Source: Thermoproteota archaeon
Lineage (GTDB): Archaea; Thermoproteota; Korarchaeia; Korarchaeales; Korarchaeaceae
Length of the DNA stretch: 64,000 bases
NCBI GenBank assembly: GCA_027491555.1
Contig: JAOZGN010000006.1
Location: 1 to 64,000, forward strand
Direction: 5' to 3'
Shown here one piece after another: positions 44,858 to 49,316 of this stretch. The position numbers were made by a program, and so were the translations under genes. Below the pieces are notes generated by a model. It was given only the letters and a program-made list of their open reading frames with translations, searched no databases and was not told the DNA's origin. Numbering within the stretch: position 1 is the stretch's first letter; every line of letters starts with the position of its first letter.

Positions 44858-46009
44858 ATGGGCGTCAGAGTCCCGATCTCAAGGCCGCTGCTCGGAGCGG
44901 AAGAAGTGGAGGAGGTGGAGCTTGTCCTCAAGAGCGGAATGCTAGCGCAAGGGAAGAGGGTGAAAGAGCTGGAAGATGGGTTTGCCGAGTACGTGGGAGC
45001 TAAGCACGGCATCGCAGTGTCCAACGGGACGCTCGCCCTCCTGGTGGCCCTTCAGGCCATGGGGATTGGGCCGGGGGACGAGGTCATCACGACCCCCCTC
45101 TCGTTCTTCGCGACGGCCTCTACCATCCTCATGACGGGCGCCGTCCCCGTATTCGTTGACGTTGACCCGGAGACCTATAACCTCGATCCCGGGCGGGTGG
45201 AGGAGGTCCTGTCGGATCGCACCCGGGCGATAGTTCCGGTCCACCTCTTCGGTCACCCCGTCGACATGGACCCCCTGCTGAAGATAGCTCGGGAGAGGGA
45301 TCTGCTGATTCTCGAGGACGCCGCGCAGGCTCACGGAGCTGAGTACAGGGGAAGGAAGGTCGGATCCATCGGCCACGCGGCCGCGTTCAGCTTCTACCCG
45401 ACGAAGAACATGACGACCGCCGAGGGTGGGATGATAACGACGAGCGACGACCGGCTGGCAGGGAGGTGTAGGCTCCTCAGAGACCACGGGCAGGAGTCAA
45501 AGTACGTTCACATAATGCTCGGAATGAACTGCAGGATGACGGATCTCCAGGCGGCCATAGGGGTAGTGCAGCTGAAAAAGCTGGATAGCATGAATGAGAG
45601 AAGGCGGGAGATAGCCAGAACGTACGTAGACGAGCTCGGTGGACTCGAAGGGATCGAAATGCCGATTGAACGCCCCTGGGCGAGGCACTCCTGGCACCTC
45701 TTTGCGGTCAAGGTCACCGGCCCGTCGAGGGACAGGCTGGTGGGAGCGCTCCGCGATCGGGGAGTGGATGCCAGGCCGAGTTATCCCATGCCGATATACG
45801 ACCAGCCGGTGATGAAGAAGCTGGGGATCAGGGAGTTCGACCCACTGTGGTTCGCGAGGTCGGGGAAGGGGTTCAAGAGGGCGGAGTGCCCGAACGCGGA
45901 GAGGCTCGTCGATCAGCTCCTTCTCCTCCCCATCCATCCCGGAATGAGCGACGAGGACGTCCAATTCGTCACGAGAGCGGTTAAGGAGGCCCTGAGGGAG
46001 GTCAGCTGA
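44858..46009 (+). CDS. DegT/DnrJ/EryC1/StrS-family PLP aminotransferase
   Basis: 383 aa. Family motifs: SNGTLALLVALQAMGIGPGD, TPLSFFATASTILMTGAVPV, LEDAAQAHGAEYRGRKVG, and the PLP lysine in AAFSFYPTKNMTTAEGGM. These enzymes aminate keto-sugars bound to nucleotides, for glycans or secondary metabolites. No other sugar-nucleotide genes are adjacent, though a GT2 enzyme lies at 15.7 kb. The 3' end overlaps the convergent ECF gene by eight bases. Confidence 0.94.
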   Translation: MGVRVPISRPLLGAEEVEEVELVLKSGMLAQGKRVKELEDGFAEYVGAKHGIAVSNGTLALLVALQAMGIGPGDEVITTPLSFFATASTILMTGAVPVFVDVDPETYNLDPGRVEEVLSDRTRAIVPVHLFGHPVDMDPLLKIARERDLLILEDAAQAHGAEYRGRKVGSIGHAAAFSFYPTKNMTTAEGGMITTSDDRLAGRCRLLRDHGQESKYVHIMLGMNCRMTDLQAAIGVVQLKKLDSMNERRREIARTYVDELGGLEGIEMPIERPWARHSWHLFAVKVTGPSRDRLVGALRDRGVDARPSYPMPIYDQPVMKKLGIREFDPLWFARSGKGFKRAECPNAERLVDQLLLLPIHPGMSDEDVQFVTRAVKEALREVS

Positions 46010-46502
46010 CCCACCTGCTCAGGGCCGCCCTGAGAACTTTGGACAAGGGGACGCCGACCAGAACTCCAGCAGCCGCCTGAAAGAGGTTCCCGGGCAGTTC
46101 CGCGACCGCCGCCCCCGGTCCCAGCAGAATGGCCTCCACGGTGAAGTAGCCCAGCACCATCTCGGCTACCGCGACGGTCGCGCCTGCGATCTCCGCCAAC
46201 CTCCCCCGGCCCGAGACCAAGCCGGCTAGGGCGCCCTCAACTCCCTTGATGGCCAGAGTGTAGGGGGCGTAGTGAGCGTATCCAGACAGCAGGTCGGCGA
46301 GGGCCGAGCCGACTCCTCCGCAGAACGCCCCCACCGTGGGACCGAGAGCCAGTCCCAGGGTGATCACCACGATGTCGCCCAAGTTTATGTATCCCTGAGT
46401 CGCCGGAACCGGGATCTGCACTACCAAAGTGGTTGCTGCCACGAGGGCGGCGCCCATACCTGCGAAGGCGGCCCAGACGGACCCGTTCCTCGGCCCGGCC
46501 AT
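46002..46502 (-). CDS. ECF transporter substrate-binding (S) component-like membrane protein
   Basis: 166 aa from ATG 46502, placed 15-20 bases from a TATA-like ttatacat. Five to six hydrophobic segments and the phrases GYINLGDIVVITLGLALGP, VGAFCGGVGSALADLLSGYA and TLAIKGVEGALAGLVSGR are those of vitamin-uptake S components (the ThiW/HmpT-like and PdxU groups share these). The ligand is not readable; thiamin- or vitamin B6-related compounds are typical. It needs an ECF energising module encoded elsewhere. It diverges from the threonine-synthase-like HTH protein, which makes that protein a candidate regulator. Confidence 0.75.
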   Translation of the reverse strand: MAGPRNGSVWAAFAGMGAALVAATTLVVQIPVPATQGYINLGDIVVITLGLALGPTVGAFCGGVGSALADLLSGYAHYAPYTLAIKGVEGALAGLVSGRGRLAEIAGATVAVAEMVLGYFTVEAILLGPGAAVAELPGNLFQAAAGVLVGVPLSKVLRAALSRWVS

Positions 46503-46514
46503 CGCGAGCACCGA

Positions 46515-46541
46515 AGATGTATAAGTCAGCATTCTTATATT
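46515..46541. promoter_or_regulatory. Divergent TATA elements between the ECF gene and the HTH fusion gene
   Basis: Two A+T boxes lie in the 54-base gap: gatgtataag (46516-46525, serving ATG 46502 on the minus strand) and ttcttatatttg (46532-46543, serving ATG 46557). Both starts are at leaderless distance. A regulator bound between them could control both genes. Confidence 0.55.
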
Positions 46542-46556
46542 TGAGTCAGAAAGCTT

Positions 46557-47942
46557 ATGTATCGGACTATGACGAAGTGGCTGGCCCGCTGCCCCAAGTG
46601 TGGGCTGAGCCGCGAGCTGATTCAGGTGACGCCTACCTGCCCCATATGCGGTACCCCCCTCCTTCTCCTGCCAGACCTCCAGGAGCTGCGGGGCAGGGTG
46701 ACCCCCGACGTCTTGGCCAGCAGGGTTGCGGGAGTCTGGAGATACAGGGAACTCCTGCCGGTCTCTCGGGATCCCGTCACGCTCGGAGAGGGTGGAACCA
46801 GGCTCCACGCGTGCAGGAGACTCGGGAGGGAGGCGGATCTGCGCGGCCTCCTGGTGAAGGATGAGACGAAGAACCCCACAGGCTGCTTCATAGACAGGGG
46901 ATCCACGGTGCTGGTGTCTCGAATAGTTGAAGAGGGATACCAGGGCGTCTACGGAACTGTCAAGGGAAACCTTGGGGCCTCTCTCGCTGCCTACTCGGCT
47001 AGGGCGGGGGTGGGGTGCGCGGTGAGGGTGGACGGGCCGACCGACCCGGCGAAGCTCTATCAGATGATTGCCTACGGGGCTGCAGTCTCCCCACCAGACG
47101 GCCGAATGGAGGCTCCAGAGCGATACTACAACGTCTTGAACTCTGATCCCCTCCTCGTGGAGGGCGAGAAGACGATATCGCTGGAGGTGCTGGAGTCTCT
47201 GGGGTGGGAGGAGCCTGACGCGATCGTCGTGCCCGTGGGTAGCGGCTCCCTCATGACCGCGGTCTGGAAGGGAATCACGGAGGCCAGGGAGCTGGGACTC
47301 GTGCGGTCGGAGGGCGTCCGACTCTACGGGGTGAGACCGGGTGAGGAGAGCGCCGTCGCCCTGGATCTCCACTTTCCTGAGCCAGACCGCTTGGACCAGG
47401 CTAGTGAGGCTGTCAGGGAGAGCGGCGGGGACTTGATCACGGTCGGAGACGAGGAGATGCTGGAGGCCTCGAGGAAGCTCGCCCGCGCCGAGGGGATATT
47501 CGCCGAACCCGCCGCGGCCTCCACGCTGGCGGCCGCGGAGAGGCTGAGGGTAGAGGGGGAGATCTCTCCCTCAGACACAGTCGTCCTCATAGTGACCGGG
47601 TCCGGGCTGAAGGACCCCACCGCCGCCGTCAGGGAACTTGAGAGGCTCCATTTAACCGACGCCTACGTGAAGGGGGAGCGCGTTGGCAGGCCGCTCGGGA
47701 GGACGAAGACGGCGATCCTGAGGATACTGACCTCTGGTAAGATGCACGGGTACGAGGTCTGGAGGAGGTTGAAGGGATCCGGCGTGGAGATCTCGCTTCC
47801 GGCAGTTTACCAGCACCTCAAGTCGCTGGAGGAGATGGGCGCGATTGCCAGGGTCCAGACGGTGTCAAAGAATGGGAGGTCTCGCGTAGTCTACTCCATA
47901 ACCCCGAGAGGCAGGCTCCTCCTGTCGACCGTGGAGGGATGA
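46557..47942 (+). CDS. Threonine-synthase-like pseudoenzyme fused to a PadR-type winged helix
   Basis: 461 aa in three parts. Residues 12-35 are a zinc ribbon (CPKCGLSRELIQ...CPIC). Residues about 70-370 are a threonine-synthase-type fold-II PLP domain: TLGEGGTRLHA, DETKNPTGCFIDRGST, VYGTVKGNLGASLAAYSARA, VPVGSGSLMTAV and EPAAASTLAA. In active enzymes the segment is NPTGSFKDRG and the Lys holds PLP; here codon 112 (46890-46892) is ATA, giving Ile, so no internal aldimine can form. Residues about 380-461 are a PadR-like winged helix (KTAILRILTSGKMHGYEVWR, LPAVYQHLKSLEEMGAIARV, YSITPRGRLLL). I infer a ligand-sensing regulator rather than an enzyme, possibly of the divergent ECF gene. Confidence 0.82.
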   Translation: MYRTMTKWLARCPKCGLSRELIQVTPTCPICGTPLLLLPDLQELRGRVTPDVLASRVAGVWRYRELLPVSRDPVTLGEGGTRLHACRRLGREADLRGLLVKDETKNPTGCFIDRGSTVLVSRIVEEGYQGVYGTVKGNLGASLAAYSARAGVGCAVRVDGPTDPAKLYQMIAYGAAVSPPDGRMEAPERYYNVLNSDPLLVEGEKTISLEVLESLGWEEPDAIVVPVGSGSLMTAVWKGITEARELGLVRSEGVRLYGVRPGEESAVALDLHFPEPDRLDQASEAVRESGGDLITVGDEEMLEASRKLARAEGIFAEPAAASTLAAAERLRVEGEISPSDTVVLIVTGSGLKDPTAAVRELERLHLTDAYVKGERVGRPLGRTKTAILRILTSGKMHGYEVWRRLKGSGVEISLPAVYQHLKSLEEMGAIARVQTVSKNGRSRVVYSITPRGRLLLSTVEG

Positions 47943-47980: not shown

Positions 47981-48403
47981 GTGGGTGATTCCGTGAGCTC
48001 GGAGGAGAAGAGGCTGAGGATCCTCACGGCCCTGAGGGGGGTCTATGACCCTGAGATACCCATCAACGTCGTCGATCTCGGTCTGATCAGGGAGGTCACC
48101 GTCGAAGAGAAGGAGGGACCCACTACTGTGAGGGTCAGGTACACTCTCACGGCCCCCGGGTGTCCGCTGGCCCAGATGCTCTCTTCCCTCATCAAGAGGA
48201 CCGTCGAGGCCGCAGTCGGCAGCGACGTCAACGTTGAGCTGATCTACGAGGACTTCCCGCCCTGGACCCCGGCCGACATGACCGAGGAGGGCAGAGAGGA
48301 GTTCAAGAGGAGGTACGGCTACGACATAATGGACTCCTTCCTCAAGCAGTGGGGTAGCATCGAGAACTACATCGAGGCGGTCAGGAAGGCCCTCGGGAAG
48401 TGA
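47981..48403 (+). CDS. MIP18/DUF59 iron-sulfur cluster assembly-type protein
   Basis: 140 aa. The DUF59 core is clear: LRGVYDPEIPINVVDLGLIR, then RVRYTLTAPGCPLAQMLSSL with the conserved cysteine, and VNVELIYEDFPPWTPADMTE. Such proteins (SufT, MIP18, PaaD) help deliver iron-sulfur clusters. A 45-residue helical C-terminal extension (EGREEFKRRYGYDIM and on) follows the domain. GTG 47981 fits the TATA distance; GTG 47993 is an alternative. Confidence 0.92.
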   Translation: MGDSVSSEEKRLRILTALRGVYDPEIPINVVDLGLIREVTVEEKEGPTTVRVRYTLTAPGCPLAQMLSSLIKRTVEAAVGSDVNVELIYEDFPPWTPADMTEEGREEFKRRYGYDIMDSFLKQWGSIENYIEAVRKALGK

Positions 48404-48416
48404 AGGTGGCGGGGAC

Positions 48417-49316
48417 TCACCCCTGCTCCGACCTAGTGACGGCCAGCGTCACCCCAGCCAAGAGAACCGCGCCGCCAATCACGACCCTTAGGGACGGGAC
48501 CTCGCCCAGCACGACCCAGGCCAGGACCGTCGCTCCTATGGGCTCCATCAAGATCGCCAGCGAGACCACGTGCGCCTTGACGTACTTCAGGGCGTAGTTG
48601 TAGAGGGTGTGACCCACGCATGAGGGTCCCAGGGCCAGGGCCAGAAAGATCGCGTACTCCCTGAACGGGTAGCCAGTTAGGGGGCTCCCTATCGAGAGCG
48701 CGCCGGCAGCCAGCGCGAGCCCAGAGACCCCGTAAACGGACGCCGCGTAAGACAGGGTGTCGAGGCTCCTCCTCAGCGCCCTGCCCGCCACCAAGTAGAG
48801 TGCCAGAGCCACTGCGCCCGCGAGGGCGAGGGTTGCTCCCAAGAGGTCACGCTCGGTGAGGGTCCAGGCCTCACCAACGATCGCGGCGGCGCCCAGCATT
48901 CCCAGAGCGATTCCGGCGGCCTCTCGAAGGGTTATCCTGTCTCCAAGGAGGGCCCACCCCAAGACGGCGGCAAACATCGGGGCAGAGTCGACCAGCACAA
49001 CGCTCACCGCGACGGAGGTGTACTTGAGGGAGGTCACCCAAGTCGCGAAGTGAACGGCCAGAGCGATCCCCGAGGCCGCTAGCTGTGGGAGCAGACCCTC
49101 AATGACCTCTACAGATCTCAGTAGAGATGGGAGTGAGACGAGCGACATAATCGCGGCCGCTATCAGAAGTCTGTTGGCCGCTATCACCATGGCCGGCGCG
49201 CTGCTCAGCTTGATCAGGACGCTGGCGGAGGACACGGAAGAGACCCCTATCGCCAGCGCCAGCCTCGGGTCGAGCCCGCGTTGACCCCGCGCCACGGCCG
49301 AGCGCTCCCCCCTCAC
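48417..49316 (-). CDS. EamA/DMT-family transporter
   Basis: 299 aa with ten hydrophobic segments in two repeated halves, each an EamA domain (LALAIGVSSVSSASVLIKLS... AVHFATWVTSLKYTSVAVSV; GVSGLALAAGALSIG... YNYALKYVKAHVVSLAILME). The second-half ending (PIGATVLAWVVLGEVPSLRV) is classic for drug/metabolite exporters. Substrate unknown. GTG 49316 start. It is convergent with the MIP18 gene and diverges from the molybdoenzyme remnant. Confidence 0.9.
   Translation of the reverse strand: MRGERSAVARGQRGLDPRLALAIGVSSVSSASVLIKLSSAPAMVIAANRLLIAAAIMSLVSLPSLLRSVEVIEGLLPQLAASGIALAVHFATWVTSLKYTSVAVSVVLVDSAPMFAAVLGWALLGDRITLREAAGIALGMLGAAAIVGEAWTLTERDLLGATLALAGAVALALYLVAGRALRRSLDTLSYAASVYGVSGLALAAGALSIGSPLTGYPFREYAIFLALALGPSCVGHTLYNYALKYVKAHVVSLAILMEPIGATVLAWVVLGEVPSLRVVIGGAVLLAGVTLAVTRSEQG

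Follow-up and report, generated by a model that had tools for sequence, protein, structure and literature searches.

What does a threonine-synthase-like protein do once it has lost the lysine that holds PLP and gained a DNA-binding tail? The question is raised by a gene of the window, the whole 64,000-nucleotide stretch of archaeal DNA analysed here. A first-pass annotation had read a zinc ribbon, a threonine-synthase-like domain and a C-terminal PadR-like winged helix (wHTH) in its single chain, and had proposed a new class of regulator. All three parts were recovered, and the locus is summarized in Table 1.

Table 1 Features of the fusion gene and its surroundings, in positions of the window.
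Feature	Position	Strand	Basis or remark
Gene of the 461-aa fusion protein (zinc ribbon, then Lys-less threonine-synthase-like domain, then PadR wHTH)	46557..47942	+	proposed B6/PLP-responsive transcription regulator
Zinc-ribbon cysteines C12, C15, C28, C31	46590..46649	+	each in at least 90% of 63 alignment rows
PALP domain (PF00291), residues 74-348	46776..47600	+	Pfam, E 1.8e-55
Codon ATA (Ile112), PLP-lysine position	46890..46892	+	sequence and family alignment
PadR-like winged helix (PF03551), residues 387-456	47715..47924	+	Pfam, E 1.5e-12
Divergent intergenic region, 54 bp	46503..46556	.	AGTCAG twice, 46524-46529 and 46544-46549
Inverted repeat TATAAG-N8-CTTATA in the divergent gap (candidate operator)	46520..46539	.	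once in the 64-kb window
ECF transporter S-component (PF07155), HmpT/PdxU-like	46002..46502	-	E 1.1e-32; putative importer of B6 vitamers, proposed as target
SufT-like Fe-S assembly protein gene, downstream of the fusion	47981-48403	+	PF01883; TIGR02945 below cut-off
EamA-like gene, by resemblance only	48417-49316	-	

The enzyme part is a domain of PLP fold type II with the threonine-synthase fold, and the wHTH scores 47.8 bits on PF03551 against a gathering score of 27. Curated threonine synthase models stay below their cut-offs: TIGR00260 reaches 141.4 for 167.1, and NF004170 (PRK05638) 256.3 for 421, the latter alignment spanning residues 11-459 with the wHTH part included. No GntR or aminotransferase family is among the 12 Pfam families listed for the protein. 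Both Pfam domains are present in 119 of the best 120 of 1094 protein-search matches, and relatives are filed as 'threonine synthase': the architecture is already in the databases, unrecognised. The combination of Lys-less threonine synthase and PadR proves to be a widespread archaeal family.

In the column of the PLP lysine, lysine occurs in 0 of 121 sequences (the best 120 of the 1094 matches and the window protein). Isoleucine is found in 62, leucine in 22, valine in 19 and methionine in 14; serine, phenylalanine, threonine and asparagine appear once each. Ile112 is therefore genuine and, instead of a change private to this protein, the state of its family. Relatives with both domains and a lysine column devoid of lysine rule out a mis-joined tail and a sequencing error; conservation of the fold and of pocket residues between distant archaea rules out a pseudogene.

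A wider set of homologous frames includes 63 with a C-terminal tail, which carry Arg (18), Ile (14), Leu (12), Lys (7), Val (5), Met (3), Asn, Thr and Ser (one each) or a gap (one); tail-less frames have lysine at this position in 54 of 54. Named loci were gathered with two peptide patterns that omit the lysine position, so that the locus scan is unbiased in this respect. Arginine was recorded in 43 of 98 tabulated tailed loci and lysine in 10. Homologues that retain lysine, named by the first-pass annotation as evidence against its reading, thus form a minority sub-group and do not reach into the clade of the window protein. Two genomes of the same genus as the window, G001 and G007, each also encode a tail-less, lysine-bearing synthase, and the fusion therefore need not make threonine. 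Two full-length fusions were seen per genome in G147 (C57, C66) and G065 (C36, C73); in G147 an Arg-type and an Ile-type protein (L144, L145) occur together, so the two types can coexist. In Lokiarchaeal fusions (L041, L067, L072, L078, L080) the PLP lysine is retained, and an S-component lies convergent at a distance of 3-15 bases; these fusions are possibly bifunctional enzyme-regulators or the ancestral state.

To place the fusion in the family, a tree was built from the enzyme domain alone, with the lysine column and the wHTH excluded and five duplicates or fragments removed beforehand. A single branch (SH-aLRT 96) separates 62 of 62 wHTH-tailed sequences from 51 of 51 tail-less Lys synthases. 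This tree gives no clean split of Lys-less from Arg/Lys/Ser types (five changes for Arg, three for the others). A second tree, with more fusions, contains an Arg/Lys/Ser-type clade (56 rows, SH-aLRT 99) and a mostly Ile/Leu/Val/Met clade (60 rows, SH-aLRT 97) that includes the window protein; its one exception is L110, an Ile protein on a long branch among the Arg/Lys/Ser types. Lysine survives in the Lokiarchaeal and in some Bathyarchaeal fusions. The simplest reading of these two trees, both quick and made without bootstrap, would be one fusion event with lysine loss afterwards.

Apart from the lysine, the pocket is largely intact. Residues Lys101, Glu103, Asn106, Arg114, Gly137, Asn138, Gly228, Gly230, Lys205, Thr347 and Lys352 are largely retained in Lys-less members. 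Conservation reaches 97% for Thr347 and Gly228 and 100% for Gly230, and the Asn138 column holds N in 85% and D in 11% (n = 42); Asn138, Thr347 and the glycine loop (Gly228, Gly230) we take to be the fold-II contacts for PLP. Ser135 and the next residue are more variable in Lys-less members than in normal synthases: Ser135 is S in 45% and T in 19% of the former, and S in 83% of the latter. The Ser/Thr ahead of Gly137 is presumably the grip on the carboxylate of the amino-acid substrate. PLP contacts kept, lysine lost and a substrate loop loosened would suit reversible sensing of PLP. Non-covalent PLP binding is chemically sound, since YggS without its lysines still binds PLP in this way, as an excerpt of PMC9601805 reports.

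The S-component 54 bases away, suggested by the first-pass annotation as a target, turns out to be a conserved partner. Once six same-genome duplicates had been removed, 59 of 98 fusion loci showed an S-component at a distance of up to 1.5 kb, and four showed divergent pdxS-pdxT. The S-component model was built from fusion neighbours, and the linkage count therefore rests on tail-less control loci, where 0 of 52 have an S-component or pdxST within 1.5 kb. Sorted by residue at the lysine position, the S-component accompanies 29 of 43 Arg-type loci (mostly downstream, on the same strand), 7 of 10 Lys, 2 of 2 Ser and 21 of 43 others, 19 of these divergent; the four pdxST loci all fall within the last group. 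Among 20 further loci (L228 being the same place as L037, and the L224 protein identical to that of L013), three have an S-component and four divergent pdxST.

The pdxST loci thus come to eight (L006, L010, L172, L213; L025; L217, L218, L219), some of the fetched regions having been hand-picked from the listed matches rather than representing all of them. Pfam confirms PdxS and PdxT in L006 and L010 and PdxT in L025; PF01680 searches confirm PdxS in the genomes of L025, L172 and L213; L217-L219 were called with a model made from confirmed ones (E 6e-126 or better). On the second tree the pdxST label changes four times, each change forced by well-supported branches. Neither partner is found within 1.5 kb in 31 of 63 tabulated non-R/K/S Lys-less loci, some of them at contig ends. 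In the Arg-type loci L139, L140, L143 and L160 a tail-less Lys threonine synthase is divergent and an S-component lies downstream, which may point to another regulon or signal in the Arg-type clade. Thermococcus Arg-type loci L050, L051 and L059 show no S-component in 1.5 kb and a small conserved ORF directly downstream. Judged from these neighbourhoods, we regard the link to B6 as well supported.

The neighbour itself scores 113.9 bits on PF07155, with a cut-off of 26.7, and HmpT (4hzu_S) is its only PDB sequence match at E ≤ 0.01 (E 5.2e-13). HmpT was found with pyridoxamine, according to an excerpt of PMC4860826, and the B6 transporters PdxU and PdxU2/HmpT are placed in PF07155 in an excerpt of PMC9997740. 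Tyr120, Asn140 and Gln143 of HmpT are retained in 57 of 57 neighbouring S-components, all of which replace His84 by Lys, Gln87 by Glu and Ser136 by Glu; the position of E41 holds E or D. As one pocket signature (Lys84, Glu87, Tyr120, Asn140, Gln143) runs through the 57, Arg/Lys-linked and Ile/Leu-linked S-components probably share a substrate.

The divergent gaps of S-component and pdxS loci have a common element ahead of the fusion, for example TATAAG-N6-CCTATATATAGG; its spacer is 6 in the relatives and 8 in the window. Upstream of non-R/K/S fusions, TATARG-N6-CYTATA occurs exactly in 12 of 38 regions (0.0 in shuffles) and with at most one mismatch in 23 of 38 (0.2 in shuffles), two more same-genus copies and upstream regions under 100 bases having been removed. 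The element was first spotted by eye, so this count is not blind, and further loci served as a fresh set: at most one mismatch was found in 8 of 19 with upstream sequence, three pdxS-linked ones included. At the same threshold the count is 0 of 55 upstream of R/K/S-type fusions, many of which adjoin the same S-component, and likewise 0 of 55 upstream of tail-less synthases. Spacers 5 and 7 show no enrichment at one mismatch. Spacer 8 is high at two mismatches (23/38), in our opinion because the right arm is itself palindromic. In G001 and in G007, TATARG-N8-CYTATA has a single occurrence, in the gap between regulator and S-component; this gap is nearly identical within the genus, so that the two genomes are not independent witnesses.

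We then followed a long form, TATARN7CCTATATATAGG, through 25 genomes. With at most two mismatches it gives 38 matches, versus 20 for a reversed control, and about half are therefore background; with at most one (n = 20), 18 matches stand ahead of the fusion (17 genomes, by coordinate comparison) and two elsewhere. This N6 long form has no match in G001, G007, G030, G097 and G101, and the 25-genome search found little of a regulon beyond the neighbours. A general promoter motif instead of an operator is not favoured, given its absence from the R/K/S-type and tail-less regions and the rarity of the long form genome-wide. The element also precedes fusions with other neighbours, for example in L009 (two mismatches) and L145 (exact); divergent from these are an EamA transporter gene (L009:92-1060) and a GNAT gene then an EamA gene (L145:4015-4917), candidates for further B6-linked genes. 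Two related genomes have a two-mismatch copy ahead of a gene of the PALP family (around position 1501 of L204 and of L205), which is too weak to claim as a regulon member. As a candidate operator the element is well supported by its distribution, and binding of the protein to it is predicted.

According to an excerpt of PMC9997740, the archaeal route to PLP is PdxS-PdxT alone. PdxS did not turn up in G001 or G007 (each 96% complete), in 26 of 29 sampled genomes of the phylum, or in any of the 19 genomes searched that have the S-component divergent; it is present in 8 of 50 genomes behind fusion loci, and over cut-off in 15 of 201 sampled genomes of G030's class. A missing PdxS would fit B6 importers; the rarity of PdxS throughout these groups, together with the incompleteness of several genomes, makes this weak support. 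For the same rarity, we dropped complementarity between fusion and PdxS as a main argument.

From the architecture, lysine loss, retained PLP residues, operator-like element and B6-gene linkage that emerge by comparison, we infer that the fusion is probably a one-component transcription factor governing the supply of vitamin B6, repressing in its PLP-bound form. The threonine-synthase-like fold-II domain, having lost internal aldimine and catalysis, would bind PLP (or some other phosphorylated form of B6) reversibly, without a covalent bond, and would relay its ligand state to the PadR wHTH. A dimeric wHTH would then sit on the inverted repeat, covering the promoters of the divergent gap. With PLP plentiful, the holo-protein would repress the S-component gene (or pdxST in PLP makers) together with its own gene; a drop in PLP would release both promoters. 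That genes of B6 uptake and of PLP synthesis stand under one element argues for a regulator that senses a B6 compound and adjusts its supply. Repression by the PLP-bound form is preferred because the element overlaps a TATA-like sequence close to the regulator start codon. Several observations count against the model: the spacer of 8 in the window, the R-, K- and S-type fusions that go without the element, the 31 of 63 loci with neither partner, and S-component pockets that depart from HmpT at positions 84, 87 and 136.

That overlap, which suits occlusion, also tells against an activator acting on the same B6 regulon, whose apo-protein would activate the S-component or pdxST genes and repress itself when B6 is short. 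PadR proteins, moreover, are mostly repressors. Streptococcal PdxR does autoregulate and activate pdxKU without B6, from a similar layout with the regulator beside the transporter (excerpt of PMC11619246), and we hold such activation, although the main rival, to be unlikely here. Of the signals that the first-pass annotation had put forward (amino acid, phosphoester or PLP), B6/PLP is favoured over the others, since the regulator is also divergent to pdxS-pdxT in eight loci. The partly kept serine of the substrate loop counts against the B6 reading. A pocket for O-phosphohomoserine, threonine or the like, with the transporter link secondary, is suggested by the threonine synthase fold and by the four R-type loci with a divergent tail-less Lys synthase. 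All four also have the downstream S-component, however, and threonine synthase within 1.5 kb is absent from the table for the 43 window-type and the 20 further loci. An amino-acid sensor moreover leaves the pdxST linkage unexplained, and we consider it quite unlikely.

Regulation by riboflavin, HMP or thiamine is suggested by the Pfam name of PF07155, which refers to riboflavin, and by HmpT having first been taken as a hydroxymethylpyrimidine carrier (excerpt of PMC4860826). The divergent PLP synthase, behind the same kind of element, and HmpT as the sole PDB match of the S-component make another vitamin very improbable. We give equally little credence to a protein that is still an enzyme, through a Lys-independent reaction or with another lysine as aldimine, the wHTH serving secondary self-control. 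Lys101, Lys205 and Lys352 are nearly invariant, and YggS deprived of its PLP lysine can use neighbouring ones (excerpt of PMC9601805); normal synthases, however, conserve these three just as well, so they do not stand in for the PLP lysine, which has itself given way to I, L, V, M, R and others.

Returning to repression by a PLP-bound regulator, we lean, on balance, towards a wider statement: a class of transcription factors derived from a fold-type II PLP enzyme, which gained a PadR wHTH once and then mostly lost its lysine (to I/L/V/M or Arg), would have become a reversible PLP gauge and the B6 sensor of many archaea, with TATARG-N6-CYTATA as an operator common to B6 uptake and PLP synthesis genes. 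If true, cells made gene switches out of PLP enzymes on two or more occasions, starting from different folds, and loss of a catalytic lysine can itself be the gain; database entries named 'threonine synthase' may be regulators. Many of the archaea examined seem to be without PLP synthase, and MocR factors, PdxR among them, are reported as absent from Archaea in an excerpt of PMC5320631. The family offers a candidate sensor, operator and B6 importer for archaeal B6 rationing, all testable in vitro.

Compared with ThrC (TIGR00260; NF004170), the window protein has the same fold and PALP domain, and a zinc ribbon as in archaeal relatives; it differs by the absent PLP lysine, scores below the curated cut-offs and linkage to B6 genes. 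With PadR factors (PF03551) it shares the wHTH, which in this case follows an enzyme fold at the C-terminus of the chain. Its neighbour belongs to PF07155 like HmpT/PdxU2 and PdxU, but is archaeal and carries H84K, Q87E and S136E. In CymR-CysK of Bacillus a fold-II PLP enzyme likewise takes part in transcription control; there, the two are separate proteins and CysK is an active enzyme. The closest likeness is to MocR/PdxR regulators. There, too, a winged helix is joined to a PLP-enzyme fold, which acts as the sensor and in the window family would do so; PLP synthesis or salvage is under the control of PdxR-type members; and layouts are divergent and autoregulatory, in the window family by prediction. 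The first-pass annotation knew of no fold-II equivalent, and we found no description of this architecture or of an archaeal B6 regulator in the open-licence literature searched. MocR/PdxR proteins join an N-terminal GntR wHTH to a fold-type I aminotransferase domain, whereas the window family has fold II and a C-terminal PadR: neither domain is in common, and the catalytic lysine is usually absent from the window family. The family is best read as an archaeal B6/PLP-responsive counterpart of bacterial PdxR, in which a regulator has arisen from a PLP enzyme of a different and, for this role, new fold.
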